Source: Gimesia algae
GTDB lineage: Bacteria > Planctomycetota > Planctomycetia > Planctomycetales > Planctomycetaceae
DNA: 64,000 bases
Assembly (NCBI RefSeq): GCF_007746795.1
Contig: NZ_CP036343.1
Coordinates: forward strand, 3,461,369-3,525,368
Direction of reading: 5' to 3'
This document shows, piece by piece, positions 21,140-60,372 of this stretch. The position numbers and the translations under genes were made by a program. Each line of letters opens with the position of its first letter. Position 1 is the first letter of the stretch. Under the pieces are notes generated by a model. The model was given only the letters and a program-made list of their open reading frames with translations. It made no database searches and was not told the origin of the DNA.

Positions 21140-21231
21140 CTGTGTCCAGCTTTACTGTAGCGTCTCCAAAGCCATTTGGACCGAGTATCATAGATTGTGA
21201 GACGCTATGCTTAAATGTGATGTGCTCTAGA
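21140..21231 (+). repeat. Dispersed structured repeat, copy 1
   Basis: First of two tandem units (period 92). It begins CTGTGTCCAG, contains TTTACTGTAGCGTCTCC, an inner hairpin TCCAAA-GCCA-TTTGGA and an outer stem TAGCGTCTC/GAGACGCTA, and ends GCTCTAGA. Three further copies are at 21232, 48786 and 60283. It starts 20 bases after the stop of the secreted-protein gene. Confidence 0.9.
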
Positions 21232-21322
21232 CTGTGTCCAGCTTTACTGTAGCGTCTCCAAAGCCATTTGGACCGAGTACCATAGATTGTGAGACGCTAT
21301 GGTTAAATGTGATGCCCTTTAG
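21232..21322 (+). repeat. Dispersed structured repeat, copy 2
   Basis: Direct tandem repeat of copy 1 with about five substitutions in 91 bases, none of them in the stem arms. The same outer stem (TAGCGTCTC/GAGACGCTA) and inner TCCAAA/TTTGGA hairpin are present. It lies in the convergent interval between the secreted-protein and HDOD genes. Confidence 0.9.
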
Positions 21323-21388
21323 TTACTGCAAAACTGAATACAGGTTCCTTTGAAATCGCATTTGATAACAGCCTGTTTCTTTGACAGG

Positions 21389-22252
21389 TCAGCCCTCCAG
21401 ATTCACACCAAAAAATGTGGCGCTCTCGGTTATATCCTGTTTACACGATTCAATCATGTTTTCAATCTGCTCTTCATCCAGGTCGAAGTAAGTCTGCATA
21501 ATCTCTTCTGCTTCCAGATACTCTTCGGAACTGCGATTCCACACAGAACCTGCCAGCAGGCTCCCCGTACGTATCGCCATTCCCAGCGGACAACCATGCT
21601 GTCCGTCCCCATGATGCTGTTCAATCGCGGTCACCATTTCCGGAGGCAGTGCCCAGTGATCCAACAGACGGGCTCCGAGCAGTGCATGATCGAATCCAAA
21701 GTACTGCTGTTCTCCCTTCAGAAGCTGCTCACCATGGGGGTAACTTTCATAGATCAGACTGTATTGCTCACGTTCCACCTGTGAAAACACCAGAATTCCG
21801 ACATCCGCCAGAAGACCCGCGGTGTAAGCTTCATCATTTTTCAGGCACTTATGGTGATTTGCCAGATGGGATGAAATGGAAGCAATCGTCAGGGCTCTCT
21901 GCCAGTAATCGGCAAAAATTCGCCCCTTGCTGCGTTTGGTCAGCGATTCCACCATGGAAAAGCTGATCGTCAGCATGCGAATCGCATCCTTACCCAGATA
22001 GGAGACCGCGTGTCTGATACTGATGATCTGTCGGGAGACGCCGTACTTGGATGAATTCACGACCTGCAGAATTTTCGCTGCCAGCCCGGGATCATGCTCG
22101 ATACATCGAACAATATCATCAATGCGGCTTTCCGGATCTCGGGTCAGTTGCAGAATCTGTTGTGCAACTTTCGGGGCCGAGTGTAAGCGATCTAAACGTT
22201 GAACAAATCGATCTGCCAGATCAATGGGGTCTGCACAATTATCAACTAACAT
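21389..22252 (-). CDS. HDOD domain signalling protein
   Basis: Cytoplasmic protein consisting mainly of an HDOD domain (PF08668), a catalytically degenerate relative of HD phosphohydrolases found in signalling and chemotaxis settings. Conserved segments are LPSAPKVAQQILQL-like LHSAPKVAQQILQLTRDPES near residue 25, DPGLAAKILQVVNSSKYG near 60, ISIRHAVSYLGKDAIRMLTI near 80, and AYTAGLLADVGILVFSQV near 140. I chose the second ATG of the frame (22252), which has AAGG six bases upstream; the first is at 22258. No fused receiver or GGDEF domain is present. The next gene on this strand ends 227 nt upstream. Confidence 0.88.
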   Translation of the reverse strand: MLVDNCADPIDLADRFVQRLDRLHSAPKVAQQILQLTRDPESRIDDIVRCIEHDPGLAAKILQVVNSSKYGVSRQIISIRHAVSYLGKDAIRMLTISFSMVESLTKRSKGRIFADYWQRALTIASISSHLANHHKCLKNDEAYTAGLLADVGILVFSQVEREQYSLIYESYPHGEQLLKGEQQYFGFDHALLGARLLDHWALPPEMVTAIEQHHGDGQHGCPLGMAIRTGSLLAGSVWNRSSEEYLEAEEIMQTYFDLDEEQIENMIESCKQDITESATFFGVNLEG

Positions 22253-22485
22253 GACCATCCTTCTTTTTGTAGTTTACTGCGTTGCCTTTTAGCCCGTTTA
22301 GGGGTTGTCTTCTCCCGAAATCTATCTTTGGAGAACGCAGACACGGTCAATAATTGTGATCCGATAACCAGTTTTCTGATACTTGGAAGCAAGTGTTCCA
22401 GAAATGACGGTCGGGACTGTTGTAGTACCGATTGACCCTCGATTCTGAGAACAGATTTCCCTCCTCAGAATATGACTGCCTGACC

Positions 22486-23367
22486 TTACGCCAACAGTTT
22501 GAGTCCTGATTCCTGGATTTCATAGGGAACCAGTGATTCATCGACGGCACTGCCACGATGTTTGGCAACATGCAGTGCCCGGCTCATCCGGTTTCCTTCC
22601 TTGATTTTACCCATCAGAATGATGGTATTCGCATTGGAAAGGACATCCCCGCTCTCGATTGGACGTTGTATGAGATCATCCAGCATCACTTCATGCGTCG
22701 TCAGCAGCAGCAGACATCCGATCTGCTGAAAATCATAACGATGCTGTTCTACCTCGGCCTGATGACTGCGGAACTGTGCCCGGAACAGATCACGGGCGAC
22801 CCAGTCATATTCTTTACGGAGGATCTGGTGGTAGACGTATTCAAACGCATGAAACTGGAACGAATCACTGGGGCGGTCCGTCGGTTCGATACCATCGATC
22901 ACCGTCCGTCGGACGCCATGCACGAAGTTGGAATAAAAAAAGGCAATCGCGGCGTCCAGTTTCTTGACGAATTCCAGTTTCCACTCTTTCCATTCATCCA
23001 GTTCCATATCACGGCGCGTCACCCGACGACCACTCTGGCGAAACAGATGCTGGTAGTCGGTTCGCGTCTCAGCATCCCAGATCCGGTCCAGGTCAAAAGG
23101 CGCATCAACCAGTTGTTCACGCAGCTTCCATTGGAAAAGTCGCTCGGCGTAATCACTGTGACTTTGGGAATCTCCGCGGGTGGCCATATCAAACAGCACC
23201 CCGGTCTGCCCTTCCTGCTGCAAGCCAGCCTCTGCGAACTGCAGACCAAGCTGTGTTTTGCCGATCCCGGTTGCGCCCAGCACCACGGTCAGTTTGCCTG
23301 GCAGCAACCCGCCCGAGAGCAGTTCGTCGAGTTCAGGAATTCCCGTTTTTTGTCGCAAGTCAGCCAT
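22486..23367 (-). CDS. KaiC/RAD55-like RecA-fold ATPase, single domain
   Basis: Predicted cytoplasmic ATPase of the KaiC/RAD55 group. The N-terminus [20 protein letters not shown] followed by [20 protein letters not shown] is the family hallmark, with Walker [10 protein letters not shown] at about residues 31-39. A hydrophobic [13 protein letters not shown] segment near 220 corresponds to Walker B/sensor. It has one RecA domain (293 aa), not the two of cyanobacterial KaiC, and no KaiA/KaiB is nearby. An inserted charged helical region (about 100-170) follows. The role is unknown; single-domain relatives are regulators in archaea and bacteria. It lies 78 nt downstream of the PLP-enzyme gene. 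Confidence 0.8.
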
Positions 23368-23445
23368 GATGAATCTTCGTTTCGCGGAAAGAACCTCCGC
23401 GCCTTTGTGCTTTTCGGTTAGCGCCAGCCGCTGAGTTGACCAGGA

Positions 23446-24561
23446 TCAGACGGTAATATAGCGGTCACGGGCAGCCACATTCCAGTGGTCAACCACTTTT
23501 CCGACACTGACGACCGTCACTGATTTATGCAGAGCTGACGTCGGGCAGACGTGCCGGGGAATCGCCAGTAGTTCATCACCGGGCTGAAATTCGGCAGCCC
23601 GTTCACTGATGACGACCAGATGTTCTTCATTCTGCAGTACCGGTTTCGCATCGGGTAGATCGGGGAACCGGCAGCGATTTTCCATCGCAGGGTCAGAAGC
23701 AATGGCTTTATAACCCAGATCAAAGGTAATGCGTTCCGGACCGGGGCGGCTGATGACACGCGTTAACACCATCGCTGCCGGAGTAAAATTCAGGTCGGGA
23801 AACATTTCCCCATACCCGACATCATGCAGCACACAGGTTCCCGGGCAGACTTCGATATCCGGATCGTCAATGCTGGCAAAGATGGGGAACGAACCGGTCG
23901 CACCTGCCACAATCCGCGGGACCGGGAGTCCTTCGGTGACCAGTTGATCCCGCAGACGACTTACGTTGTTCCAGACTTCTTTAACCGCGATTTCCCGTTC
24001 ATGAAAATCAACCTGATGATTCTGCCCATCATAGGCGTGCAGACCCGCCGCGATTAAACCGGGCGTATTCGCGATCATCTGGTACAGTTCGACTGCATTC
24101 TCCCCAGGTGCAATACCGGTTCGATTCTGGCCGGTATTCAGATCGAGCAGGACTTCGATTTCGAGTCCTGCGGCGGACATCGCTTCGCCCAGTAAGTCAA
24201 CCGGGGCGGGATGATCGGCGGTCACCTGCAGCGACACATCGGGCCAGCGTTTACGAAACTCCACCGCGCGGGCGATGTTGGGGCCGACCAGGTTATAAGC
24301 CAGACAGATATCTTTGACACCCGTATCTGCCAGCATTTCGGCTTCCGCAAATGTCGCCGCCTTATGCTTCAGGATTCCCAGTGAAAGTTCCAGTTGGATG
24401 ATCTCACGCATCTTATGAGTTTTACAATGCGGGCGCAGTCGGGAAGGATCTCCGACCAGCTCAATCATTTTTCGTAAGTTGTCCTCAAGCAGATCCTTGA
24501 AGATAATCATTCCCGGTGAAATGATCTGACTTGTATCGTCTATCTGATAGCATGCATCCAT
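23446..24561 (-). CDS. D-threonine aldolase / D-serine dehydratase-like PLP enzyme
   Basis: Fold-type III PLP enzyme (alanine racemase N-terminal domain plus D-ser_dehydrat C-terminal domain, DSD1 family). The PLP lysine is in LRPHCKTHKMREI near residue 47. AYNLVGPN near 90, GLHAYDGQNH near 165 and the C-terminal metal-site motif with H and C (AIPRHVCPTSALHK, about 340-353) are seen. Such enzymes cleave or dehydrate D-3-hydroxy amino acids. The substrate is not set by sequence. It lies 27 nt downstream of an amidohydrolase and after a symporter, suggesting uptake and breakdown of a small organic compound. Confidence 0.85.
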   Translation of the reverse strand: MDACYQIDDTSQIISPGMIIFKDLLEDNLRKMIELVGDPSRLRPHCKTHKMREIIQLELSLGILKHKAATFAEAEMLADTGVKDICLAYNLVGPNIARAVEFRKRWPDVSLQVTADHPAPVDLLGEAMSAAGLEIEVLLDLNTGQNRTGIAPGENAVELYQMIANTPGLIAAGLHAYDGQNHQVDFHEREIAVKEVWNNVSRLRDQLVTEGLPVPRIVAGATGSFPIFASIDDPDIEVCPGTCVLHDVGYGEMFPDLNFTPAAMVLTRVISRPGPERITFDLGYKAIASDPAMENRCRFPDLPDAKPVLQNEEHLVVISERAAEFQPGDELLAIPRHVCPTSALHKSVTVVSVGKVVDHWNVAARDRYITV

Positions 24562-24588
24562 GAGCAGACCTGATCGCAGTTTGAAATT

Positions 24589-25428
24589 TTAAATACCCTG
24601 AAAAAAGACCTTTTCCGCCGTCTTTTCCAGAATCCATTCTTTGTCCATCGCAGACAGAAAGGGCAGACCATTCTTGACTAAACCAATGGATGCCTGATAC
24701 GAATGATCGCCTTGCACCTGGTAAGGACAGTCGGTGGCCCACATCAGACGATTCGCTCCAAAGGCCTGATACACTTTCTGGATCAGTGGCAGCAGATCGT
24801 GGTAAGGCATCTTTTTTTTGCCCAGTGCATAGAAGGCGGAGACTTTGACATACACGTTGGGATGCTTGGCCATCTTGCAGAGCATGTCAACTTCTTTCGG
24901 ATCGATTTCCCCGGAAACACCAATGCGGGCCAGGTGGTCAATAACGACCGTCGTATCGCGATGTTTCTGGCACATCTTATCCAAGGCAGGCAGGCCGACG
25001 GCATCCATCAGGCAGCACATGGCCATGCCTTCTTTGGCGCCGGTCTTCCACATCTCTTCCATGCATTCCCCGTCCAGCCATTCATCGACTTTTTTCGACA
25101 GAGGACGAATGCGAAAGCCCCGCACGCCTTTCTTTTTCAGAGCCAGCATTTCAGGAGTCGGGTTCTTTCCGTTCTGATCGATCACCGCGACACCTGAAAA
25201 CATACCCGGATATTTCGCCATGCTGTCCAGCATATAGCTGTTGTCAAAGCCATAAAAGGACATCTGAATCAGCACCACCCGATTCACGCCGACCGGCATC
25301 ATTTGTGCCTGCAGTTCTTCAGCCGTAAAGCTGGGCGGTACCATATCAGAAACCTGATACCCCGGTGCCAGGGGATATTTTTTGACATCCGGAGTCCAGA
25401 CATGCGAGTGTGCGTCGATATATTCCAT
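24589..25428 (-). CDS. Amidohydrolase family 2 protein
   Basis: Predicted metal-dependent hydrolase (Amidohydro_2, PF04909), 279 aa, cytoplasmic. It shows YIDAHSHVWTPD at residues 3-14, VVIDHLARIG near 150-159 and MWATDCPYQ near 235, giving the His/Asp metal ligands. It is only distantly similar to the amidohydrolase gene at 3400-4275. It stands 46 nt downstream of the symporter gene in a minus-strand operon with the PLP enzyme. The reaction could be hydrolysis or decarboxylation of the imported compound; this is inference. Confidence 0.85.
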   Translation of the reverse strand: MEYIDAHSHVWTPDVKKYPLAPGYQVSDMVPPSFTAEELQAQMMPVGVNRVVLIQMSFYGFDNSYMLDSMAKYPGMFSGVAVIDQNGKNPTPEMLALKKKGVRGFRIRPLSKKVDEWLDGECMEEMWKTGAKEGMAMCCLMDAVGLPALDKMCQKHRDTTVVIDHLARIGVSGEIDPKEVDMLCKMAKHPNVYVKVSAFYALGKKKMPYHDLLPLIQKVYQAFGANRLMWATDCPYQVQGDHSYQASIGLVKNGLPFLSAMDKEWILEKTAEKVFFQGI

Positions 25429-25474
25429 TGCATAAGCCTCTGATAGAAAAGGTTAGCGGGAAAAACAGCCAGAA

Positions 25475-27466
25475 TCAGGAATCGGCCTTATTGATGTAAA
25501 AGAATTTGTGCACGAGTTCTTCCGGTGGGGGTGCCGTCATTTTTGTAACAATAAATCCGGAGACAAACGAGACAAACAAGCCGATAATGATCGGATCAAA
25601 ATCGAATAACTGGTAAGGCTTGAAAAAGCTGCCATTCACAAAATAGCCGGTGATATACATCGCCAGATGCACGGAAAAGCCACCGAGCATGGCCCCCATG
25701 GCGCCGGCCGCATTGACGCGTCGCCAGTACAGACCATAGACAATCGTCGCCAGAAAACTGGCAGCCAGACCACTGCCGACATACACGATAATATCCTGCA
25801 GGAACTGGGGAGGATTGATGGCGACCACCATCGCAGCGGTACCGACAACAAAGGTCGCCAGGTAACTTAACATCTTGATGGTTTTCTCACTGGCTTCGGG
25901 ATTGATATTCCGCTGATACACGTCACGCACCCAGGCCGAAGAAATCAGCAGCAGGAAGCTGTCGACGGTCGACATCACCGCGGCAAAAGGAGCCGCCACC
26001 AGCAGACCTGCCAGCCAGCCCATGCCGATATGTTCGGTCAGATAAACGGCCATGGCCGGCATGATCCGGTCAGAATCACCTTCCATCCCCGGCAGCAATA
26101 CGCGGGCACAGCAGAAGATCACGACCAAAGGGAAATAGATCAAAGTGTAATAAATGGCCACCGTACAGATAGAACGCTGCAGGGTTTTTGTATCGCGAAA
26201 CGCCATCAGACGTACCATATTGGCCGGCTGACCGGTCCCGGAAATCGCCCACATGAAGAAGAACGAAATCGCCAGGCTCAAGGGGAGGAATCCACTGTCG
26301 CTGCCGGGACTGGGTCCGGGGCCGACCACATAGGTGCCCTGCTGGCTGCCTTCTTCTCCGTACGCATACGATTTGAGATCGATATTGGAAACACTGACGC
26401 CATCGAGAAATTTTTCACTCTCTCGGCGGCCTAAGATTCGCTCGATATCATCCAGTGTGGTCAACTGCAGCACTTTGACTTCATTGACGGTAGTCTCCCC
26501 CTTGACTATTTCGTTCTCCACAGTGACACGGAATAACAAAGGCGTTTTATTATCGTCGATCGGGGTATCGGTAATCCAGGTTCCCGCTTCAATCCGCATC
26601 GTTTCCGGCGCGGGTTCTGCGAGCGTTAATGTAATCCCCCCCTTGTCCGGATCCGAGATCCGGGGCGGCGTCATTTTTGCCATCAGTTTCGTGGTATTTT
26701 CCAGCCCCCCCGCCTGTGAGATGGCTAAAGGCAGCATGATGATCACACCAATGACCATCACAATGCCCTGCATCACATCGGTCCAGACAACCGCATGAAA
26801 ACCGCCGTAGGTAGTATAGAGAATGACGGCAACACCAAAGACCAGCAGACACAGCAGGTATTCTGGGCTTTCCGATTCTGAAATATAGGGGATACCGGCG
26901 ACTGCCTGGGACAGTCCGGCTGCAGTACTTTCAAAGATCGTAACGCCATCCAATAGTGTTTGCAGGATCAGGCTGCCCGCTTTGAACTGGGCCACCAGGT
27001 TAAATGACATGAAAAACACGATCAGTGAGACCGCCATCAGACCTAATATCGGGCTGTGAAAGCGGTCGCGAACCACATCGGGAACCGTGATCGAGCCGGA
27101 GCGGCGTGCCACCTGGTTCAGACGTTTTCCAATCAGGCCCATCGTACAGATGGGAACCACCATGTAGCTGCCGATCCAGAGTGCCAGAATCCAGCCATGC
27201 GAATAAATCTTGGAAGGAAAACCGGTAAAACTGCCGCCGGAACTACTGGTCGCGGCAAACGTCAACGCAAACGCCCAGACCCCCAGACCACGACTTCCCA
27301 GAAAGTATTCACTGAGAAAGCTTTTGCTTTTGAGCAGTCGATTGGACAACGCGGCAATGACGAAAACCGCTGCCGTGTAGATTAAAAAGGAGACGAGTGC
27401 CGCATTCGTGCTGGACTCGGCAAACAATGTCGGCAGACTCAGATTTGTTGTTGATAGAAAGTTCAA
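25475..27466 (-). CDS. Sodium:solute symporter family transporter with extra soluble insert
   Basis: SSS family (PF00474) secondary transporter in the cytoplasmic membrane. About 13 hydrophobic helices are visible. Family segments are SEYFLGSRGLGVWAFALTFA near residue 52, TYGGFHAVVWTDVMQGIVMV near 217, and AISGTGQPANMVRLMAF near 400. Between helices near residues 250 and 385 there is a hydrophilic insert of about 130 residues (starts PPRISDPDKGG, ends GPSPGSDSG) not present in compact members such as PanF. The start is TTG overlapping the previous stop (TTGA) with GGGGGG upstream, so the two genes are probably translationally coupled. Substrate unknown. Confidence 0.9.
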   Translation of the reverse strand: MNFLSTTNLSLPTLFAESSTNAALVSFLIYTAAVFVIAALSNRLLKSKSFLSEYFLGSRGLGVWAFALTFAATSSSGGSFTGFPSKIYSHGWILALWIGSYMVVPICTMGLIGKRLNQVARRSGSITVPDVVRDRFHSPILGLMAVSLIVFFMSFNLVAQFKAGSLILQTLLDGVTIFESTAAGLSQAVAGIPYISESESPEYLLCLLVFGVAVILYTTYGGFHAVVWTDVMQGIVMVIGVIIMLPLAISQAGGLENTTKLMAKMTPPRISDPDKGGITLTLAEPAPETMRIEAGTWITDTPIDDNKTPLLFRVTVENEIVKGETTVNEVKVLQLTTLDDIERILGRRESEKFLDGVSVSNIDLKSYAYGEEGSQQGTYVVGPGPSPGSDSGFLPLSLAISFFFMWAISGTGQPANMVRLMAFRDTKTLQRSICTVAIYYTLIYFPLVVIFCCARVLLPGMEGDSDRIMPAMAVYLTEHIGMGWLAGLLVAAPFAAVMSTVDSFLLLISSAWVRDVYQRNINPEASEKTIKMLSYLATFVVGTAAMVVAINPPQFLQDIIVYVGSGLAASFLATIVYGLYWRRVNAAGAMGAMLGGFSVHLAMYITGYFVNGSFFKPYQLFDFDPIIIGLFVSFVSGFIVTKMTAPPPEELVHKFFYINKADS

Positions 27467-27840
27467 GACTCATTCCCCCCGGCAGTTGCTTCATCTTCTG
27501 CTGCATGCATCTCTGCAATTTCTTCTGCGAGATCTTCACCTTCGTGAGCTACTCCGAGGTCGTCTTCTTTCATATAAAACAGGCAGAACCAGACAGTAAA
27601 CAGGTCGGCAACTACCCAGGGGAAAGCAATCCCCCAGAAAACCCAGCTGGGAATACCCATGGTCGTTTCAATATTTTCCGGATCAAGACCCGATTGAAAC
27701 CCGTTGAGGTAACAGTACGGGACCGACCACAATAATGCGACCACCCATAATCCCAGAATAATCCAGGCTTCACGTTTTGAGTTTAAAAAGACAGGGTCAA
27801 TCTGCATTGACTCTGTGTCGTTCGATGGTGCGGTACTCAT
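27463..27840 (-). CDS. Small two-helix membrane protein partner of the symporter
   Basis: 125-residue protein with two predicted membrane helices (about residues 25-45, IILGLWVVALLWSVPYCYL; about 65-90, VFWGIAFPWVVADLFTVWF) and an acidic C-terminal tail. Such small proteins (DUF997/YhdT type) commonly precede sodium:solute symporter genes, and the membership here is inferred from size, topology and position. It overlaps the symporter by 4 nt and is first in the operon. It may stabilise or regulate the transporter. Confidence 0.7.
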   Translation of the reverse strand: MSTAPSNDTESMQIDPVFLNSKREAWIILGLWVVALLWSVPYCYLNGFQSGLDPENIETTMGIPSWVFWGIAFPWVVADLFTVWFCLFYMKEDDLGVAHEGEDLAEEIAEMHAAEDEATAGGNES

Positions 27841-28085
27841 TGCACGGCCCTCACTTCTAAACGAATATCTCTATGTTGAGCGTTAAGCGACCGATTGTAC
27901 TCTCGATCCTGACGAGACACAAAGGACCTCTACCCGATTGCACAAATTTTATCAGAACTGAATTCACCGTGACACAAACGTGAACAGGCTGTTATACTGT
28001 CCCATAGATAAAACCTGTCAGTTTTACCTGTAAAACCAGCGGCGTTTTTCGTGCAAATCAAAATTTTCTCCGGGAGTAAGTCGAT

Positions 28086-29060: not shown

Positions 29061-29074
29061 TCGCGAACAACGCA

Positions 29075-29335
29075 TCAGTCTGCTTTCCAGCGAAGCGTGA
29101 GTTCCTCCCAGCCAGGCACACTGCTCTCAGGATACTCCTGCAGAAAAGGCACACGTTCCACGACCTGTGTGAATAACGTCGCGATCGCCTCTCCCATTTC
29201 CCATAAGGCGTGCCTGAAATTGGCCTGCTCCGCAAGTGCCTGCATGTCGGAATAGGAAAGTCCTCCCGTCAGACGGCTGAGCTCTGCATCACATTCCCAC
29301 TGCGCCCCCTGCTGTTTGAGTGCATAAAGCTTCAT
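29075..29335 (-). CDS. Small protein of unknown function
   Basis: An 86-residue frame from the ATG at 29335 (KLYALKQQGAQWECDAELSR at the start), acidic, apparently helical and without signal or membrane segment. The open frame reaches 29485, but the added N-terminus looks non-coding. No family recognised and no strong ribosome binding site seen. It is convergent with the YHS lipoprotein, 14 nt apart. Moderately likely to be real. Confidence 0.45.
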   Translation of the reverse strand: MKLYALKQQGAQWECDAELSRLTGGLSYSDMQALAEQANFRHALWEMGEAIATLFTQVVERVPFLQEYPESSVPGWEELTLRWKAD

Positions 29336-36457: not shown

Positions 36458-36475
36458 TGCAGCTTTGTTTCGATT

Positions 36476-48734: not shown

Positions 48735-48785
48735 TGTTCGAAAACAATCTCAACAGTAGTGACGATAGAGTCGGGAGCAACCAGA

Positions 48786-48876
48786 CTGTGTCCAGTTTTA
48801 CTGTAGCGTCTCCAGAGGTATTTGGATTGAGTCTATTTGTACGAGAGACGCTCTGCTCAAATGTGATGCGTTCCAG
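48786..48876 (+). repeat. Dispersed structured repeat, copy 3
   Basis: 91 bases starting CTGTGTCCAGTTTTACTGTA and ending GCGTTCCAG. The outer stem GCGTCTC/GAGACGC is kept. The inner stem reads TCCAGA/TTTGGA, so the G replaces A but still pairs with T as a G-U wobble. The loop differs. It lies between the MFS gene start (minus) and the small plus-strand gene. Confidence 0.88.
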
Positions 48877-49020: not shown

Positions 49021-49290
49021 ATGGATAGTGCAGAAGGTTGGCGTTCGATTCTGGAAAACTGGCCGGCTGCGATTCCCAAAAAGGGGATCGTCGTCACCAC
49101 CTACCAGGAATCGATTCCATTTCAGAATTTCCTGCTCTCAAGTTCGGTCGTGATGTTCGAACGGGACAAACCCGACTCTCTGGGAGCGCGAAAAGTGATG
49201 CTTTCCTACAGCGCAATCTGTGCCATCAAGCTGACCGATCCGGTAGAACTGGCCCGTTACCAGGTAATGGGCTTTCAGCCGTCAACGTAG
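49021..49290 (+). CDS. Small conserved-looking protein of unknown function
   Basis: 89 aa from the ATG at 49021 (DSAEGWRSILENWPAAIPKK at the N-terminus). The sequence alternates short beta-like strands (GIVVTTYQESIPFQNFLLSS, SVVMFERDKPDSLGARKVML), giving a compact fold with no signal or membrane segment. No family recognised. The longer frame from 48889 overlaps the end of the structured repeat region and is less likely. The codon pattern looks coding. Confidence 0.6.
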   Translation: MDSAEGWRSILENWPAAIPKKGIVVTTYQESIPFQNFLLSSSVVMFERDKPDSLGARKVMLSYSAICAIKLTDPVELARYQVMGFQPST

Positions 49291-49416
49291 TGTCTTATCA
49301 GACTGGGTATGAAACGCTTCCTGCAATGGTCCGCACGCTCGTTGGCGTGCTCGTCTGGCGTTGATCACCTGCCAATACAGGCGATGCGACCGTTGGCAGA
49401 CTGCGTTCCTGACTGA

Positions 49417-50316: not shown

Positions 50317-50321
50317 ACGAC

Positions 50322-51815: not shown

Positions 51816-53663
51816 TTAAGTGTCAGCGAGGGTCTGGTCGATCCATGCCATCAACGCATCTTTAAAGTCTTCAATTGTCGAGAAGGCTGCGTGTTTGGTC
51901 TGATCCAGCAGGCCGGGATCTGTGACTTCTGCCTGCGCGAAGTAATAAAATTTAATTTTAGGCTCGGTACCTGAAGGCCGTACACCCAGTTGGACCGTCA
52001 GCGGCGATCCCTCGGCTCTGGCTTCCAACATCAGAACATTTCCCTTTGGTTTCGAAAAGGTCTCGGTCACCGTATTTTCGGGTAATGACCGGATTTCCAG
52101 ATCCTGATAGTCTCTGACTAATGTAAAGTTGAGATTTCCCATTTTTGCAGGAGGTGTACTGCGAAAGGCCTTCATCAACTGTTTGATCTGTTCGTTACCC
52201 GATGACCCTTTGCAGGTTTTGGAGACCTGACCTTCCAGATGAAACCCGTGATCAAGGTAGAGATCGTCCAGGCGATCCAGCAGTGTTTTGCCTTCTGCCT
52301 TGAGTTCGGCAGCAAGTTCACAGGCCCAGAGGGCGGCAATCGCCGCATCTTTGTCGCGACAGTATTCACCTGCCAGATAGCCCAGTGACTCTTCCGTTCC
52401 GAACACAAATTTGTCGGGTCCTTCTGCGTCCATGGTCTCTGCGATGTACTTGAATCCGACCAGCAGGTTATTGATAATCCGCACATTGGCTTTGCGGGCG
52501 ATGGCGGCGATCAAGGGAGTGGTCACGATCGTCTCGACCACGAAGTGCTCCGGGGAGAGCGTTCCGGCTGCCTGACGTTTGCGGAGCACATAATCGGCGA
52601 GTAAGGCCCCGACCTGGTTTCCCGTCAGATGAATAAATTCACCGGCAGGGTTTTTAACACAGACCCCCATGCGATCGGCATCGGGATCACTGGCAAGAAT
52701 GATTTCGCCGCCGGTCTGTTTCGCCTGTTCAATCGCCGGTTGATAGACTTCCGTCCGTTCGGGGTTCGGGAGTTGGTCGGGAACATTCGGAAAATTTCCG
52801 TCCTGTGCACACTGTGGTTCGTACTTCTGAATTCCTGCAAATCCCGCCTGCTGCAGTACCTGATACACGGACGCTTCTCCCACTCCATGCAGGGGTGTGA
52901 AATATCCAGTGATGTCACGATTACCAGAATGGCTATGGCTCACGACCGAACTGCGATATTTGCTGGCGACGTCTTCATCAATAAACTGAATCAGGCCTTG
53001 CTCGACCGCCTGGTCAAAATCGAGCAGCGGGATCTCGGCAGCCTGATAGACTTCATCAATAATCCCCTGATCGTGAGGAGGCAGGACCTGTCCTCCGGTA
53101 GACCAGTAGGCTTTGAAACCATTATCGGAAGGGGGGTTGTGTGAAGCGGTAATCATTGCACCGACGTCACAACCACACTCGCGGACCGCGAAGGAAAGTT
53201 CGGGGGTGGAGCGGGAGGTTTTGAAGAAATAGACGGTCAGGCCGTGCCCTGCCAGTACACTGGCTGCGATGCGGGCAAAATGGGAGGAGTTGATTCGCGA
53301 GTCATGCGCAATCGCCGCTTTCCCGGTTTCTTGACCCGAAAACGTTTTGCTGTAGGCAGCCAGTCCGTGCGCTGATTCTGCAATCGTGCGCTCGTTGATG
53401 GTGGCGGAGCCGAGTTCGCTCATCAATCCGCGTCGACCGCCGGTTCCGAAAGGAATGACTTCCCAGAAACAGGTATCGAGCTGCTGAAAGTCTTTGTCCT
53501 CGATCAGTTTCAGCAGAGCAGGCTGGTAAGGAGCATACTGTGGTTCCGTCACCCAGCGCTTCAGATTTTCGAGGGCAGATTCGGAGAGTTTTTTCTCGGC
53601 GACGGCAGTACGCGCGAGTTCCATTGCCTGCGAGGAATCAATAGAGGGAGAAGGCTGATTCAT
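51816..53663 (-). CDS. Phosphoglucomutase/phosphopentomutase-type phosphohexomutase
   Basis: 615 aa from the ATG at 53663, the normal size for bacterial alpha-phosphoglucomutases of the PgcA group. Conserved loops: catalytic AMITASHNPPSDNGFKAYWS near 215 with the phosphorylated Ser, metal loop ILASDPDADRMGV near 325, sugar loop FGTEESLGYLAGEYCRDKDA near 425, and phosphate loop GVRPSGTEPKIKFYYFA near 575. It interconverts glucose-1- and -6-phosphate in the cytoplasm, and could feed the neighbouring inositol-phosphate synthase. The frame is open a further 150 codons upstream, but that part is Trp/Arg-rich, unlike a real protein. Confidence 0.93.
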   Translation of the reverse strand: MNQPSPSIDSSQAMELARTAVAEKKLSESALENLKRWVTEPQYAPYQPALLKLIEDKDFQQLDTCFWEVIPFGTGGRRGLMSELGSATINERTIAESAHGLAAYSKTFSGQETGKAAIAHDSRINSSHFARIAASVLAGHGLTVYFFKTSRSTPELSFAVRECGCDVGAMITASHNPPSDNGFKAYWSTGGQVLPPHDQGIIDEVYQAAEIPLLDFDQAVEQGLIQFIDEDVASKYRSSVVSHSHSGNRDITGYFTPLHGVGEASVYQVLQQAGFAGIQKYEPQCAQDGNFPNVPDQLPNPERTEVYQPAIEQAKQTGGEIILASDPDADRMGVCVKNPAGEFIHLTGNQVGALLADYVLRKRQAAGTLSPEHFVVETIVTTPLIAAIARKANVRIINNLLVGFKYIAETMDAEGPDKFVFGTEESLGYLAGEYCRDKDAAIAALWACELAAELKAEGKTLLDRLDDLYLDHGFHLEGQVSKTCKGSSGNEQIKQLMKAFRSTPPAKMGNLNFTLVRDYQDLEIRSLPENTVTETFSKPKGNVLMLEARAEGSPLTVQLGVRPSGTEPKIKFYYFAQAEVTDPGLLDQTKHAAFSTIEDFKDALMAWIDQTLADT

Positions 53664-54300
53664 CCTGTGACTTTTTCCGTATTCGAGAGCGCGGGTTCTT
53701 GATTCGTGATTGTAACAAACGCGGGTTTGAGTTCCATTTCTGAATAACTCTTTTCCCGGAAGGATTATCTGCTGGAATGTCCGTTTCTGGTAAACAGGTC
53801 TGACCTTGAACCAGACTGGGGCGATACGGGTTTTCTCTCCCCAGACAGAATTGAGCCAGAGTGAACTGAAAATATCGCACTTTCCAGACATGCTTCTAGA
53901 TTGTAGAGTGAAAAACCCTGTGAGCCAACCCTCACGCGAAATCCGGTTCCAGGAGTGCCTGAATCCGCTGAAAAGTCTGATTACAACGAATGTATCAGCT
54001 GACGGATTCAACCCGTACAGGCGAACGCACTGAATCTTTGCCCAGAAAGACAATTTCCATCCGTTAAGACTTTGCCAGTTTTTGGTTTCCCACCGATCAA
54101 GTCCTTGATTCCCCATCCTAACAGTGGCAGAATAGGTGAATTAAAACGGTATAACACAATTCAGGTTATACCAATCTTGATTTCAGAGTCACGAGAACAG
54201 AGGAGGGAATTCTCCCATTTGGTTTCTTGATTCTCTCGATTCCGCTCTAATGTCCTGATCCATGATGAACCTGCATGAATAACGAAATTAAGGTAGTACT
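53664..54300. other. Divergent regulatory region pgm / Hsp70
   Basis: 637 bases between divergent genes. It contains the palindrome listed separately and, presumably, both promoters. The minus-strand frame that reads upstream of the phosphoglucomutase, and a plus-strand frame at 53806-54033, are not supported as coding. Confidence 0.5.
54148..54172. promoter_or_regulatory. Palindrome GGTATAAC-N9-GTTATACC upstream of the Hsp70 gene
   Basis: A perfect 8-bp inverted repeat with a 9-bp spacer (arms at 54148-54155 and 54165-54172), about 130 bases before the ATG of the Hsp70 gene. This arm-spacer-arm form is that of the CIRCE operator bound by HrcA (TTAGCACTC-N9-GAGTGCTAA), but the sequence differs. 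It is probably an operator for an unknown regulator, and AT-rich enough to overlap a promoter. Confidence 0.6.
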
Positions 54301-55884
54301 ATGAAGTTTGTTGAAGGTCATACTGTTGGCGTTGACTTGGGAACCACCTATTCAGCAATTGCACAGCTTGACAGTGAAGGTCAGCCCATATCCCTGAAAA
54401 ACACGGATGGTCGTTCGATTACTCCGTCGGTTGTTCTGCTGGGTGAAGAGGGGCGCGTTGTCGTCGGGCCCTCTTTCGAAAGAACGGCCATTGAAGAAGA
54501 TCCTTCTCACATCATTGAAGCGGTCAAACGCCATATGGGAGATGACAACTTTTACGTTGTCTATCAGGAAAAGAAACTGACCGCAGAATTCCTGTCTGCC
54601 TTGATTCTGAAAAAGATGAAGCAGGATGCAGAAAAGGAAATCGGTCCAATCGCCAACGCCGTGATCACGGTTCCCTATTACTTCAACGATGTGCGTCGTA
54701 AAGCCACTCAGGATGCCGGCCGAATCGCTGGTTTGAATGTCATCGATATTATCAACGAACCAACCGCGGCTACGCTGGCTTATGCCTGGAAACGGGATGA
54801 GCTGGGGAACCCCGATGCCATGCCCGATGGCGAGCGTACAATTCTGGTGTACGACCTGGGTGGTGGTACCTTCGACGTCACCATTGTGCGTTATTCTCCC
54901 ACACAATTCCGCGTGCTCGCCACTGACGGGGATGTGATGCTGGGGGGACTCGACTGGAGCCAGCGTATCGTGGATCATGTCGCAGAGCAGTTCATGAAGA
55001 AATTCGGCAGTGATCCCCGTCAGGATCCCGTCACACTGCGAACCTGTGTGCAGGAGTGTGAAGACGCGAAACGAGAATTAAGCCAGAAAGCACAAACTCC
55101 CGTTTCCATTTACCACAAAGGCAACACATTGACGGTTGCTTTGACGCGTGGCGATTTCGAACGCATGACCGCGGACCTCTTGCAGCGGACACGTGACACA
55201 ACCGAATTGGTCATGCAGCAGGCGGGTGTGGAAAAAGGTCAGCTGGACGATGTGGTTCTGGTCGGTGGTTCGACGTTGATGCCTGTGGTCGAAGAAATGC
55301 TGAAAAATGTCTGTGGACGCGAACCATCGCGAACCATGAACCCCGAAGAAGCAGTGGCCCAGGGAGCCGCGATCCATGCCGCCATTCTGGAAGCGCGGGC
55401 AACTGGCGGCGAAAGCCGTATGGCACAGGCGGTGATCAAACGATTGCGGAGCGTCAGTACTGCTGATGTGAACTCCCACTCGCTGGGCGTCAAAATTACA
55501 GACCCCAACGATCGCAGCCGCAAAATCAATCATATTATGATTAAACGTAATACAGAGATTCCCGCGAGCGTCAGTCAGAAGTTTGTCACCACCTCTGATA
55601 ACCAGCAGCGGATTCACGTCATCATTCTGGAAGGAGAGGCCAGTGATCCTGATGCCTGTTCTACGATCGGTGACTTCCGTATTCTGAATTTGCCATCCAA
55701 TCTTCCCAAAGGCTCTCCTGTCGAAGTCACTTACCGTTATGATGCCAACGGTCGAATTCATGCTTCGGCACGAGAACTGACAGGTAATAACGAATCGGCC
55801 ACCGAGATTGTCCGTGACTCTGGTCTGGACATTGCGGGAGTGGATCGCTTTGAAATGCTGGCGAAAGACTACCTGGTTGAGTAA
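54301..55884 (+). CDS. Hsp70 (DnaK-like) chaperone without the helical lid
   Basis: 527 aa. The ATPase domain (about 1-385) is complete: GVDLGTTYSAIAQLDSEG near 10, ITVPYYFNDVRRKATQDAGR near 122, NEPTAATLAYAW near 155, VYDLGGGTFDVTIVR near 185, and LVGGSTLMPVVEEML near 320. The beta-sandwich substrate domain follows (about 392-505; DVNSHSLGVKI, NTEIPASVSQKFVTT). The usual C-terminal helical lid of about 110 residues and the EEVD-like tail are missing; the protein ends at MLAKDYLVE. It could still bind peptide, with weaker hold. The next gene, 129 nt on, encodes a J-like protein, the likely partner. Confidence 0.93.
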   Translation: MKFVEGHTVGVDLGTTYSAIAQLDSEGQPISLKNTDGRSITPSVVLLGEEGRVVVGPSFERTAIEEDPSHIIEAVKRHMGDDNFYVVYQEKKLTAEFLSALILKKMKQDAEKEIGPIANAVITVPYYFNDVRRKATQDAGRIAGLNVIDIINEPTAATLAYAWKRDELGNPDAMPDGERTILVYDLGGGTFDVTIVRYSPTQFRVLATDGDVMLGGLDWSQRIVDHVAEQFMKKFGSDPRQDPVTLRTCVQECEDAKRELSQKAQTPVSIYHKGNTLTVALTRGDFERMTADLLQRTRDTTELVMQQAGVEKGQLDDVVLVGGSTLMPVVEEMLKNVCGREPSRTMNPEEAVAQGAAIHAAILEARATGGESRMAQAVIKRLRSVSTADVNSHSLGVKITDPNDRSRKINHIMIKRNTEIPASVSQKFVTTSDNQQRIHVIILEGEASDPDACSTIGDFRILNLPSNLPKGSPVEVTYRYDANGRIHASARELTGNNESATEIVRDSGLDIAGVDRFEMLAKDYLVE

Positions 55885-55898
55885 TGTTTCAATGCCCG

Positions 55899-55925
55899 GC
55901 AGGGAAACGGTTCCTGTTTCCCTGC
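55899..55925 (+). other. Hairpin between Hsp70 and J-like genes
   Basis: GCAGGGAAAC (55899-55908) pairs perfectly with GTTTCCCTGC (55916-55925) over 10 bp, with a 7-base loop. There is no T-run after it, so it is not a classic terminator. It could be an RNA processing, stability or Rho-associated site that sets a difference between the two genes. Confidence 0.6.
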
Positions 55926-56012
55926 TGTGGATGATTTGAATCGCGTCAACGACCGTGTCATACTGAAACTGTTTCACTTCGAATTTGATCTAAGAGCAAG
56001 GAGTCCTCTGAG

Positions 56013-57059
56013 GTGGCAATAGACGTCTATAAGGATTGGCTGGGTATACCGGAAGGAGAGCGACCTCCACATCATTATGACTTACTGCGATTAGTCAAAT
56101 TTGAGGATGATGAAGAAAAAATCAGGGCGCACTATAAAAAGCTGAATGCCCATGTGCGCAAGTATGCCTCAGGCAAATACTCTAATGAATCCCAGGAACT
56201 GTTGAATGAGCTGGCCAAAGCCATGCTCTGCCTGACCGACCCCGAGCGAAAACACGAATATGATGAAAGCCTGGGCCGTGAATTCGGTGAAGATGAAGAT
56301 ACCGGACCCAAATCCGTTGAACAGATCCTGGTGGAACAGGGGCATATCGATAAAGCCCAGGCAGCGGAGCTGAAGGAATTTGCGGAAAAACGGGGACTGA
56401 CCACCAGGGATGCCGCCGTCCAGATGCGGTTTGTCGACGCTGAGACGGCGACTCAGGCCATGGCCCGCTCAAAGGGAATGCCTTATATCGATCTCGAAGA
56501 AACAATTCCGGATAACAGTATTCTCCTGCAGCTTCCAGAACAGATGGCCAAGCGAAATACCATTCTCCCCCTTTTCATCGACGATGATATGCTGCTTGTC
56601 GCGTGTGCAGACCAGCCAACCCATGAACTGGAAGATGACCTGCGGATGCGATATCAGGTTCCTTCCCGCTGGGTCCTGGCCATGCCCCGCTCCATTAATA
56701 CCGGAATCGTAAAATACTATGCGGCTGCTGAGGAGCAGGACGACGAAGAGCCAGCCGCAGAAGAAGCTGCCACGGACTCCAGGTCCAAAAAAGCAGCCAA
56801 ACCAGCCAAGCCAGTAAAAAAGGTAGAAAAAAAGAAACCGCAGCGGGGTGGGAACCAGCTGACTGCTGAAGAATTGAAAGAGAAAAAAATGCTGGCCTTC
56901 ATCGTTTGCGGCTGGACTTTCTGCGGGGCGATCCTGATCGATCAGTTCCTCCTCAAGAATTATGTGTTCCCCCAGACCTGGCCGTGGCATTTCATGCTGA
57001 CGACACTTGTGACACCGTTAATTGCGATCTACCTGATGACCGGGATGTGGAAGAAGTAG
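56013..57059 (+). CDS. Membrane protein with degenerate J domain and GspE/MshE N-terminal-like domain
   Basis: 348 aa from a GTG start. The N-terminus (about 1-90) resembles a J domain: PPHHYDLLRLVKFEDDEEKI, RAHYKKLNAHVRKYASGKYS, and LTDPERKHEYDESLG. The HPD tripeptide is absent (HVRK at that place), so stimulation of the Hsp70 ATPase is doubtful. Residues about 100-240 (VEQILVEQGHIDKAQAAELK, ...PYIDLEETIPDNSILLQLPE) resemble the N-terminal domain of type II/IV secretion ATPases, here without the ATPase. A Lys/Ala/Pro-rich linker and two helices (about 295-345) follow. The Hsp70 gene is directly before it. Confidence 0.75.
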   Translation: MAIDVYKDWLGIPEGERPPHHYDLLRLVKFEDDEEKIRAHYKKLNAHVRKYASGKYSNESQELLNELAKAMLCLTDPERKHEYDESLGREFGEDEDTGPKSVEQILVEQGHIDKAQAAELKEFAEKRGLTTRDAAVQMRFVDAETATQAMARSKGMPYIDLEETIPDNSILLQLPEQMAKRNTILPLFIDDDMLLVACADQPTHELEDDLRMRYQVPSRWVLAMPRSINTGIVKYYAAAEEQDDEEPAAEEAATDSRSKKAAKPAKPVKKVEKKKPQRGGNQLTAEELKEKKMLAFIVCGWTFCGAILIDQFLLKNYVFPQTWPWHFMLTTLVTPLIAIYLMTGMWKK

Positions 57060-57108
57060 ATTCCCCCGGCGGCAACCAACCTGCCGACAGTCTTCATTCA
57101 GGCCGGTT

Positions 57109-58410
57109 TTATTCTGCTTCCGGTGTCTCATCGACGGGCGTTTTTTCCCGAAGCTCGGCGATCAGATGCCCGAGCTTGCGGACTTCGATTACTTCAAGTT
57201 CAAAACCCAGCCAGTCACAGATCTCGCCGACTTCCGGGATATGTTCCAGTTTTTCGTGGAACATCCCTGCCACAGTCAAAAGTCCATCATCGGCGATTTC
57301 ATAATCCTGCTGCAACTTACGACACAGATACCGCAGCGTCGTAATCCCCTCGACATGATACACGCCCGGGGCCACTTCGCGTACCGGTTCCCTGCGGAGA
57401 ATTCGCTTGGCCCGGCTGGGTTCAGGAGAGAGTAGCGTATCAATGATATCGTCGTGAGAAACGATACCGATGGTTTCGCCGTATTCATCTACAACAGAGG
57501 CAAAGTAGCAGTCTTCTGCCTGAAAGCGAGAGTACACGTCCGACAGGTTCGCACACCAGGGTACATGAATCACACGCTTCGATTTCTGATTCAGCATTTT
57601 TTCTGAAAACGACGAGAGTTCCGTGAGCGAGATAATGCGCTCGATCTCATCGGATTCGGTATCCCGCTTTCTTAAAATGATGTAATCCGTGTTGGGAGTA
57701 ATTTTTGTAAGGTCTTCCAGTTGCACGGGCATGTTGAACGTGAGATAAGTTCCGCGGGGACGCATCGCTTCTTCGACCAGCATCTCCGACAGATCCAGAA
57801 TATTATGCAGGATCTGTCGTTCATGGCGGATGACTTCTTCACTGGAGCCTGAAGCATCAACGGCGCGTTCCAGGTCTTCGGAATGCAGGTAGGATTCTTT
57901 CTGGATGTGTGGCCAGAAGGTGCGTCGCATCAGGCGGCTGATATTCTGCAGTAACGGGATCACGGGATCCAGCAGCCGGACAGAAGCAGCCAGAGGCCAG
58001 CTGACCAGGATTGCAATTTTTTTGCGAAACACAATCGAGAGGCTCTTAGGCAGCACTTCGCCAAACAGAATAATCGCCAGCAGACTGCCTACGGTGAAAA
58101 TCCCGGCTGCTGCTGTCATCCCCTGATCGGCCAGTCGCCTGGCAATCACTCCGGCGACGGCAAAATAACTCAGGTTGATCAGCAGGTTCCAGAACAGGAC
58201 TGCTGTCAGCAGACGGTCGGCATCCGCGGCTAAAGCAGCCACGATCTGCTCACTGGGTTTGCCTTTACTGAACTGTCTCAGTTCGCTCCGCGACAGATAA
58301 AAAATCGCAGTCTCACTGCCTGAAAAGAACCCGGAAGCAAAAATCAAAGCGAGTAACGCCAGTGATCCTGGAAACCAAATTGCGACGGTATCTATTAATG
58401 CGATCATCAT
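57109..58410 (-). CDS. CorC/HlyC-type CNNM membrane protein with CBS domains
   Basis: 433 aa. N-terminal CNNM (DUF21) domain with four helices (about 10-140; ASGFFSGSETAIFYLSRSEL near 25 is the hallmark). Two CBS repeats are at about 215-335 (LVEEAMRPRGTYLTFNMPVQ near 212, VDEYGETIGIVSHDDIIDTL near 315), then a CorC_HlyC transporter-associated domain at about 350-430 (ITTLRYLCRKLQQDYEIADD). These proteins are linked to Mg/Co efflux or sodium-coupled Mg transport; the old hemolysin name is misleading. The gene is 18 nt downstream of the ABC-2 permease gene. Confidence 0.9.
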   Translation of the reverse strand: MMIALIDTVAIWFPGSLALLALIFASGFFSGSETAIFYLSRSELRQFSKGKPSEQIVAALAADADRLLTAVLFWNLLINLSYFAVAGVIARRLADQGMTAAAGIFTVGSLLAIILFGEVLPKSLSIVFRKKIAILVSWPLAASVRLLDPVIPLLQNISRLMRRTFWPHIQKESYLHSEDLERAVDASGSSEEVIRHERQILHNILDLSEMLVEEAMRPRGTYLTFNMPVQLEDLTKITPNTDYIILRKRDTESDEIERIISLTELSSFSEKMLNQKSKRVIHVPWCANLSDVYSRFQAEDCYFASVVDEYGETIGIVSHDDIIDTLLSPEPSRAKRILRREPVREVAPGVYHVEGITTLRYLCRKLQQDYEIADDGLLTVAGMFHEKLEHIPEVGEICDWLGFELEVIEVRKLGHLIAELREKTPVDETPEAE

Positions 58411-58428
58411 GAATCAGGAACAGCCACT

Positions 58429-60171
58429 CTACCCTTTATCATAAGTGGTTTTTCCCAAGGCAACATCAAATTCAGATACTGCCGGAATATACATGGAAAG
58501 AACGGGAAGCCCATAGGCAAACAGAATGGTAACGAGAACTCCCAGGGTTCCCCCCAGCAGAAACGAAGTAATGGCATAAAACGTCAAAAACGGAAGCATC
58601 CAGGCTGAGATAGCCAGTGCCCGCGACGGATTTCGGTGTGTGAGCGCTGAATGCAGGGCCGCGCTGCCCACGATAATAAAAACCAGGAAGCTCTGGAGCT
58701 GCAGGGCAAATGAAGAGCGGGCCTGTACAAGTAGAATCATGAAAACACCAATCCCGACGAACAGGAAGAACATGGTCCCCAGGCTGGCACCAATGGCGGA
58801 ACGGCTGTTGTCATACGTGAGTCCCATATGCAGACCCAGCACGATGGAAAAGATCATCAAGGCCAGAAAGCCGATCAGGGCACACAGAAAACCTTCCGTT
58901 GAAAATGCTCCCTGGCTGACCAGGTAGAACAAAACCAGAACGGGAATCAGGATCAACTCTTTACTGTTATAGAAGATCCCCCCCAGTTTTCCCAGTACAA
59001 ATTCTTTGGCAGTGATATCTGTTACCAGCAACAGTTCAAGTGTTTTACTGTCTTTTTCGGTCGTGAGAGAGGTCACAGCCTGCGTATTGGCCAGCACCAG
59101 ACTCAACCAGGCGATCCCGGCGAACGCCAGTCCCTGTGGTGGAATCACTCCCAGGTACAAAACGCCTTGCGCGACGGCTTCTGAACTCACCGCCGACCAG
59201 AGCGTAAAACCAGCCAGCAGAAAATACGCCAGCTTGATCACGAACACTTTTCGCCCGTATGCCTTAGTCATAATCTCGCGCCAGATCACAGGGTTTGACC
59301 AGATCACACGAGATTTTTCTTTAACAATCACCGTCTCATTTTCGGTTTTGGCGGTGGATTGATAAACCGAACGGGAAGGGTTCCAGACTCGCAGCCTGAG
59401 CACGGTAAATGCTTTCAAAGCGATTCCCAATACAAACAGACTGATCAGGGAAGGCCAGGCACTGACGGTAATCGGATCCAGCCCCGTATGTAAAGTTAGC
59501 GGGTTGAGAATTTCATATAGTGATCGAAACGGGTTCAGGCCGGCAATCCAGGGACGCAGGCTGGAACCAGCGGGCATCAGATTCACAATGAGTTCCACCA
59601 CGCCCAGAAAGACAACCATTCCCAGCACACTGATCGCCAGCGTCTGAAATGTTTTCTCCCTCCAGAAAGCCACTAAAGCGGCCCAACTGCCCGTTGCGAA
59701 AACCGTAATCAGACATAACAGTTCCATCCAGAAAATCTGTGAGAGTTCGATGCCCCCCAACAGACGCAGAAATACACAGACCGGAATCGATGATGCCAGC
59801 AAGACATAGACGATTAACAGGCTGGACTGGGTTTTCCCACTGACCAGTTCACGGTCTTTCAGCTCGGTCATCAACAGCAGAATCAACGTCCCACGGTCTT
59901 TTTCCTGTGCAATACTGCTGGCAGAAAACAGGAGTGTGAAAAACAGAACCAGCAATAACTGCAGAAAAGCGATCATCTGAAAGATCAGATTTCCCAGCCG
60001 GGCAAATTCACCGATCGTCGTTGACTGGATCTGTTGTGTGCCCAGGATCGTCTGTCCGGCAGTGAAGATCAGAATGAAGACCGCGGCTACATAACCCGAA
60101 CGAATCAGGTAATGGTTCAGCTGACGGGGAGAAGTCAACGCTTCCCGAATAAAAATAGGATTGTTAAACAA
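58429..60171 (-). CDS. ABC-2-type transporter permease
   Basis: 580 aa with about 12 hydrophobic helices. Each half carries the ABC-2 signature of a charged stretch such as SIAQEKDRGTLILLLMTELK (about 88) and TSLTTEKDSKTLELLLVTDI (about 375), where EKD+GT-E-LL marks the family. So the protein looks like a duplicated or fused permease pair. It probably moves a polymer, lipid or drug with a separate ATPase, which is not in the window; the start is TTG at 60171. It lies before the CorC/HlyC gene in the same unit. Confidence 0.85.
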   Translation of the reverse strand: MFNNPIFIREALTSPRQLNHYLIRSGYVAAVFILIFTAGQTILGTQQIQSTTIGEFARLGNLIFQMIAFLQLLLVLFFTLLFSASSIAQEKDRGTLILLLMTELKDRELVSGKTQSSLLIVYVLLASSIPVCVFLRLLGGIELSQIFWMELLCLITVFATGSWAALVAFWREKTFQTLAISVLGMVVFLGVVELIVNLMPAGSSLRPWIAGLNPFRSLYEILNPLTLHTGLDPITVSAWPSLISLFVLGIALKAFTVLRLRVWNPSRSVYQSTAKTENETVIVKEKSRVIWSNPVIWREIMTKAYGRKVFVIKLAYFLLAGFTLWSAVSSEAVAQGVLYLGVIPPQGLAFAGIAWLSLVLANTQAVTSLTTEKDSKTLELLLVTDITAKEFVLGKLGGIFYNSKELILIPVLVLFYLVSQGAFSTEGFLCALIGFLALMIFSIVLGLHMGLTYDNSRSAIGASLGTMFFLFVGIGVFMILLVQARSSFALQLQSFLVFIIVGSAALHSALTHRNPSRALAISAWMLPFLTFYAITSFLLGGTLGVLVTILFAYGLPVLSMYIPAVSEFDVALGKTTYDKG

Positions 60172-60282
60172 TGCTCTCTGGCCTCTTTATCCGACAGGTG
60201 ACAGCAGTCAATCAGAGACACCCCTCTCCTCACGACCGATACGTGCACCCTGATAATCTGTTGCTTTCACTATAATATTAGA

Positions 60283-60372
60283 CTGTGCCCGTTTTACTGT
60301 AGCGTCTCCCGGGGCATTAGGACCGAGTATATCAGATCCCGTGACGCCATGGTTAATTGTCATACGCTCTAA
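60283..60372 (+). repeat. Dispersed structured repeat, copy 4 (most diverged)
   Basis: 90 bases from CTGTGCCCGTTTTACTGTA to CTCTAA, about 75 percent like the others. The outer stem is kept as GCGTC/GACGC with one mismatch; the inner stem is weakened (TCCCGG/TTAGGA). It lies between the ABC permease start and the polyprenyl synthase end, and its last bases include the stop codon (60369-60371) of that synthase. Confidence 0.8.

Follow-up and report, generated by a model that had tools for sequence, protein, structure and literature searches.

Is a short repeat that occurs four times within 64,000 nucleotides of a planctomycete genome a new structured RNA, or is it a mobile element? The repeat lies in Gimesia algae (assembly GCF_007746795.1, contig NZ_CP036343.1, positions 3,461,369 to 3,525,368 of the forward strand; this whole 64,000-nt stretch is called the window below), and an earlier sequence-only reading had left the choice between a structured RNA, an element like a miniature inverted-repeat transposable element (MITE) and a family like the repetitive extragenic palindromes (REPs). 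We are highly confident that it is a MITE of the IS630/Tc1-mariner type, with ends that mimic those of an IS630-family insertion sequence (IS) of the same genus. The element is short, non-coding and dispersed, it has terminal inverted repeats, related genomes hold empty YTAG sites in its place, and it shares ends with an autonomous IS630-type IS, so that the MITE-like reading was borne out.

The four copies were found where they had been placed, at 21140-21230, 21232-21322, 48786-48876 and 60282-60372 (repeat family D1), and the members of the tandem pair do differ at about five of 91 sites. Copies 2, 3 and 4 are 95%, 79% and 70% identical to copy 1, respectively, and the segments CTGTGTCC, TTTACTGTAGCGTCTCC and AATGTGATG listed by the sequence-only reading are present in the copies, copy 4 having diverged in the alignment. 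The element is slightly longer than the ~91 nt first given: in a 95-position model it begins with (Y)TAGA and finishes with CTCTAG. The consensus, 95 nt including the flanking TAs, reads TA-GACTGTGTCC...GCGCTC-TA-G, and between YTA and TAG lies a non-coding element of ~90 bp, with imperfect terminal inverted repeats of ~28 bp and a central part of 39 nt. The two consensus arms are able to pair along most of the element.

Further copies were sought with a covariance model (R1) built from 27 copies; the RNAalifold structure in R1 differs from the hairpin debated below, and the model served for copy finding only. The own genome gave at least 150 matches, all with an E value of 1.4e-19 or better. 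With the tandem pair as the query, 41 own-genome matches were obtained (the best 40 of 288 candidates scored), the best other place having an E value of 4e-64; from these matches the repeat is far beyond chance. An own-genome sample of 488 kb, targeted around the matches and made of 134 segments whose overlaps showed no conflict, holds 168 matches, 153 of them near full length. After removal of two weak matches lying opposite a stronger one, 166 distinct places remain, corresponding to 159 units. A left-end pattern marks 21 further own-genome places outside the sampled stretches, of which four were read and proved to be copies (one truncated); the genome carries the element at at least 166 places, and perhaps at 190 or more. 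In the sample 74 copies lie on the + strand and 92 on the - strand: the uniform plus orientation remarked on earlier is true of the four window copies, but as a rule for the family it fails and is a matter of chance.

The copies are distributed between genes. Gene context could be assigned to 158 of the 166 places, eight being too close to a segment edge, with gene calls from a home-made, approximate caller (77% coding). One copy lies inside a gene, 27 overlap the 3′ end of a gene and two overlap a 5′ end. That gene 3′ ends are overlapped so much more often is in keeping with a target sequence that includes a stop codon (TAG, and TAA or TAG on the other strand). Between tandem genes, 43 copies lie on the strand of the genes and 46 on the opposite one, and the copies thus have no strand preference relative to genes. 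By eye, window copy 4 sits at 60369-60371 on the stop codon of the - strand frame 60369-61361, which is TAG here and TAA in the relatives with an empty site.

The guess that the family extends beyond the window into other Gimesia genomes proved correct. Among the 40 genomes searched, the element is present in all 17 of the genus (the own genome and 16 others) and in none of the 23 of other genera. Copy number varies widely: one copy each in G001, G005, G009 and G013; 18-24 in G002, G003, G010, G015 and G016; 42-72 in G004, G006, G007, G011 and G014; and at least 105 in G000 (the own genome), G008 and G012, with G006 and G015 being incomplete genomes (76% and 74%). The single copies of G001, G005, G009 and G013 were considered as a functional founder copy, an idea that we rejected: apart from a site shared by G005 and G009, they lie at different places. 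An exact 20-mer scan of genome contigs found 46 stretches, 34 in Gimesia records, 11 in one record of Planctomycetaceae bacterium and one in a record of Planctomycetota bacterium, and a search of a plasmid collection with the repeat gave no match. One stretch with the 20-mer came from a viral contig collection (IMGVR_UViG_3300017708_003205; L213, 9558-9577); either a Gimesia prophage or host DNA that was misfiled could account for it.

Orthologous sites that lack the element show that single insertions, that is, gains of the element, took place. After tandem self-matches and poorly bounded pairs had been dropped, 28 of 97 candidate pairs were left, several of which compare one locus with several genomes and a few of which are not clean; among the pairs listed there was none of G014 against G016. 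The site of window copy 4 is empty (ATATTAGATCG) in G001, G007, G010, G013, G014 and G016 and is empty also in G009 and G011. It is filled in G000, G006, G008 and G012, and with orthologous copies in the last three this insertion is old. The own-genome copy L219 faces an empty CATTAGTAAAA in SAT87 (G012, L201), where the flanks are 94 and 96% identical. At the site of window copies 1 and 2, G008 has no recognisable element and G012 has a very degenerate one. The site of copy 3 is empty in G006 and G012. In G008 (L097) a separate insertion lies ~20 bp from the position of copy 3, in the same intergenic stretch (48782-48876).

The insertion point is a TA dinucleotide, and the empty sites hold one TA. 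Of the 153 near-full copies, 103 have TA at both ends (125 at the left end, 122 at the right); in these 103, the left TA is preceded by C or T in 95 cases, and the right TA is followed by G in 92. The possibility of a flanking target duplication, raised by the sequence-only reading, holds in part: there is most likely one of just the TA. It is favoured by L256, whose left and right ends are both CA and whose empty counterpart in G008 is CAG, by L295, with CTAG on the left and CTAA on the right where the empty G008 site is TTAA (a junction less cleanly bounded), and by window copy 3, with CA on either side, for which the empty G012 site has CAG close by and the G006 site does not. Another copy, L177, does not fit. 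TA duplication is the best reading of these sites, few of which bear on it directly, and would be the general rule. A three-base TAG duplication is compatible with most sites, but L295 is fitted better by the two-base TA. We rejected an IS5-type four-base duplication of YTAR, the base before TA being C or T on the left and mostly C on the right, and also an integron attC, judged by eye only, since the empty sites put the insertion at YTAG.

Which transposase could recognise such ends? Among 11 IS630-type (DDE_3) loci from four genomes, G000, G012 and G014 included, only L405 and L407, both in G012, share the end of the MITE: immediately ahead of the transposase gene they carry 18 bases of its right end, of which 17 are identical. 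Both are cut short, and by eye each is followed by a small frame with an IS3-like look. Relatives of the first transposase frame at 90-100% identity occur in five of the 17 genomes (G001, G008, G012, G013 and G016), and decayed pieces were found as well, the own-genome piece being 68% identical over 57 residues with one stop. Full-length copies of the IS lie at L445 (G001) and L442 (G016); they measure 1,027 bp, run from C-TA-G to C-TA-G and contain two overlapping frames of 111 and 213 aa with an A-run within the overlap. The frames match HTH_Tnp_IS630, HTH_23 and DDE_3 (E 4.8e-33), and the second frame alone reaches the NCBIfam model for IS630 family transposases (142.5 bits, cut-off 100); with this domain composition and a model score above the cut-off, the partner element belongs to the IS630 family. 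The best plasmid relatives of the second frame are ~60% identical, several being annotated as IS630 family transposase and one as ISAzs37. The right end of the MITE agrees with both IS ends at 26 of 28 positions (L445) and 25 of 28 (L442), a likeness reached by 0 of 20,000 shuffles; beyond CTAG it shares 22 (L445) and 21 (L442) of 24 IS-end bases. Its left end matches the right ends of the IS at 18 of 28 (L445) and 17 of 28 positions (L442; shuffle P of 0.00045 and 0.001, respectively). A 519-bp, internally deleted partner IS with both ends kept, of a size between the IS and the MITE, is found in G008 (L439, 1419-1937), which shows that short IS derivatives do arise in the genus.

From these likenesses, the MITE was very probably mobilised in trans by the IS630-type IS of sister species. 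An IS630 transposase made elsewhere would bind the inverted ends of the MITE, cut the element out and reinsert it at a TA, YTAG being preferred, with duplication of the TA. Such behaviour has precedents in the family: PMC2170065 describes ISY100, an IS630-family element, as inserting at TA and duplicating it, and cites a paper (Tenzen and Ohtsubo 1991) the title of which states that an IS630-associated transposon prefers the TA in 5′-CTAG-3′. Because copies themselves end in CTAG, a second insertion there gives a period of exactly 92 bp, and the preferred target at these ends would let new copies land on old ones and build head-to-tail arrays. Among the 159 own-genome units there are five tandem pairs and one triplet, the well-preserved ones being spaced by 92; insertion into the CTAG that terminates a copy accounts for them best, a probable case of self-targeting.

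Could the hairpin formed by the repeat instead be an RNA structure? We consider a structured RNA (a cis-regulatory element, a terminator or a small RNA) that was kept by selection and spread by duplication to be very improbable. The consensus folds as one long stem-loop (-34.2 kcal/mol), the near-consensus copy L018, read on the + strand, forms a hairpin over its full length (-34.2 kcal/mol; z -4.3, compared with z -1.5 on the - strand), and several differences between the consensus arms are G-U pairs on the + strand, all of which would suit an RNA. Against shuffles, however, the window copies gave z values of -0.32, -3.70, -0.40 and +0.55, so that one of the four folds clearly better. More decisively, paired substitutions in the alignment across the genus do not go beyond what shuffles give, the very outcome on which the sequence-only reading had agreed to give up its structured-RNA proposal. 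This alignment comprises 264 distinct near-full copies out of 346 matches, after removal of duplicates and of any row that had over 6 gaps, and contains no antisense duplicates. Over 27 stem pairs, 92.0% of the cells are paired, compared with a mean of 91.8% and a maximum of 92.05% in 300 column shuffles; double changes number 17 (shuffle mean 11.6, maximum 20), and of the one-sided transitions at Watson-Crick pairs, 157 keep pairing on the + strand and 161 on the - strand only. As pairing is kept no better than in shuffles and the two strands are about equal, the decay of the stem shows no clear influence of pairing, and we attribute the hairpin to the inversion of the ends rather than to selection for an RNA. 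Changes in 133 of the 153 near-full own-genome copies amount to 4.4% and 6.5% at the ends and 8.6% in the centre; the somewhat higher conservation of the ends is also what one would expect if they have to be recognised for the element to move. The even use of both strands relative to tandem genes (43 and 46), the range from one to more than 100 copies within one genus, with independent insertions at new sites, and the absence of any Rfam match in the window at the gathering score all speak against an RNA. The hairpin, the oriented YTAG target, the right end, which is mostly CTAG, and the presence of Y1 transposases in 14 of the 17 genus genomes would suit a REP- or REPIN-like element, moved as single-stranded DNA by a Y1 enzyme (RAYT or IS200-IS605) and inserted 3′ of YTAG without target duplication. 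To this explanation we give hardly any weight, and the REP-like family named by the sequence-only reading is not supported, as Y1 (PF01797) genes do not track the repeat: of the 53 matches in all, none is in G004, which has 51 copies of the element, whereas all four single-copy genomes have Y1 matches. Moreover, 29 of the 30 Y1 loci read are without a recognisable copy, the remaining one (L166) showing a 5′ fragment of a truncated copy, and a GTAG/CGTC end tag was not encountered, the ends being YTAGA...TCTAG with GTAG and CGTC only inside the stem. Right ends of CA and TAA where the empty orthologue has CA and TAA (L256, L295) point to duplication, and the agreement of the right end with an IS630 at 26 of 28 positions is likewise at odds with a Y1-borne element.

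A closer competitor keeps the IS630-type MITE and changes its partner: the element would be moved by another, unsampled IS630 subfamily that has the left end of the MITE as its own. We regard this as unlikely, though distinctly less so than the RNA or the REP. Several findings weigh against the explanation preferred here. The left end of the MITE is only moderately like the known IS ends (17-20 of 28 positions), so that the MITE did not arise from the IS copies found here by internal deletion alone; this is also what another subfamily would predict. The intact IS does not track MITE number, again as expected under another subfamily: it is full-length in G001 (1 MITE) and G016 (22 MITEs); genomes rich in MITEs yielded only pieces or shortened copies, and the intact IS comes from those with a low or moderate number. 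The search of the own genome found only the 57-residue remnant with its stop and one weak match. L177 has CA on the left and TA on the right where the empty site is TAG, which deviates from TA duplication, and that duplication rests on few informative sites, the target nearly always being TA. On the other hand, the right end of the MITE is identical to the known IS at 26 of 28 positions. An autonomous element with the left end of the MITE was looked for with the left-end pattern, which marks 45 places in G008 and 118 in G000, 100 of the latter being listed. Of the 145 places listed in all, 30 loci were read, and they held only MITE copies, one of them truncated. The MITE burst would have taken place either with an IS that has since been lost or by means of another IS630 subfamily.

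Insertion at non-palindromic targets is strongly oriented: of 100 non-tandem copies, 40 have T-TA-G and 3 have C-TA-A. A second repeat, 'B', of ~110 bp (CTAGTGGAGTGTC...GACAAAGCACTAG), lies in both orientations beside own-genome copies and, in 11 of the 12 copies listed, directly adjoins a CTAG end of the element, so that these ends also attract another, apparently TA-targeting, element. Repeat 'B' looks like another TA-targeting (IS630-type) MITE, and no partner for it was found among the IS630-type (DDE_3) loci read. As a tentative idea, which we hold to be possible rather than probable, the MITE may have functionally unequal ends, the right one keeping the IS630 sequence and the left one having evolved away, with strongly oriented insertion as a result; the regenerated CTAG would then supply self-made landing sites, allow tandem growth and draw in other TA-targeting MITEs. 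A third dispersed repeat of ~95-110 bp (TAGTGTCTTATCAGAC...) is present in the window at 49288-49385, where its start falls on TAG, the stop codon of the frame that runs to 49290; it occurs also at L304, L334, L177, L313 and L239 and in other genus genomes. The features of the MITE and of its neighbour 'B' are collected in Table 1.

Table 1. Positions of the MITE copies in the window and of repeat 'B' in the own genome
Feature	Position	Strand	Remarks
MITE copy 1, first of tandem pair	21136..21230	+	Decayed left end (CAGGG); TAG at 21228-21230 shared with copy 2 (right end here, left end there)
MITE copy 2, second of tandem pair	21228..21322	+	Inverted ends: left ~21228-21255, right ~21295-21322
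CTAG junction within tandem pair	21227..21230	+	Right end of one copy and C-TA-G site beside the next; from sequence and tandem spacing
MITE copy 3	48782..48876	+	CA on either side (C-CA...CA-G); site empty in G006 and G012
MITE copy 4	60279..60372	+	Right end overlaps 3′ end of - strand frame 60369-61361
Repeat 'B' loci	L016, L017, L027 and others, e.g. G000 3267820, 1281471, 388325, 4245600		

The repeat belongs to a well-known kind of element, the MITEs, and is not a new structured RNA; the member itself is new. The Correia/NEMIS elements of Neisseria are likewise short and dispersed, have inverted ends at TA and are treated as MITEs, a likeness to the Gimesia element that is one of description and not of sequence. 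The closest known system is the Repeat Unit of Pneumococcus (RUP) with IS630-Spn1. In PMC3049150, RUP is given as ~107 bp long, with 110 copies in one genome and a predicted transcript structure; its inverted ends are said to resemble those of IS630-Spn1, and transposition in trans is hypothesised. RUP belongs to another phylum and is likened to our element by description, not by sequence. Unlike RUP, the Gimesia element has unequal ends and is found in tandem arrays of 92-bp period as well; as for its partner IS, sister genomes hold intact copies, while only a remnant turned up in the own genome. The IS630 family (IS630, ISY100, ISAzs37) shares with the partner the type of transposase, the insertion at TA and the preference for CTAG, whereas the Gimesia repeat codes for nothing and is not itself an IS. 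REPs, REPINs and TIR repeats associated with RAYT or TIRYT are also short, palindromic and dispersed and, according to PMC3733652, REPs are reported from Planctomycetes too; the GTAG repeats go together with a repeat-flanked Y1 transposase there, an arrangement not found in the 30 Y1 loci read here. We found no description of such an element in Gimesia or Planctomyces maris in the literature searched, outside which most subscription journals lie, and in a term search 'Planctomyc' and 'Gimesia' were absent from the main text of a 2024 review of prokaryotic MITEs.

The identification explains a repeat that a large planctomycete genome carries at no fewer than 166 places, nearly all of them intergenic, and a misleading hint of a new RNA is thereby removed. 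Moreover, the genus offers a natural series of copy numbers (1, ~20, ~50 and more than 100), in which the partner IS is intact in some species while others keep only remnants of it; this series is useful for studying how a bacterial MITE burst starts and ends.

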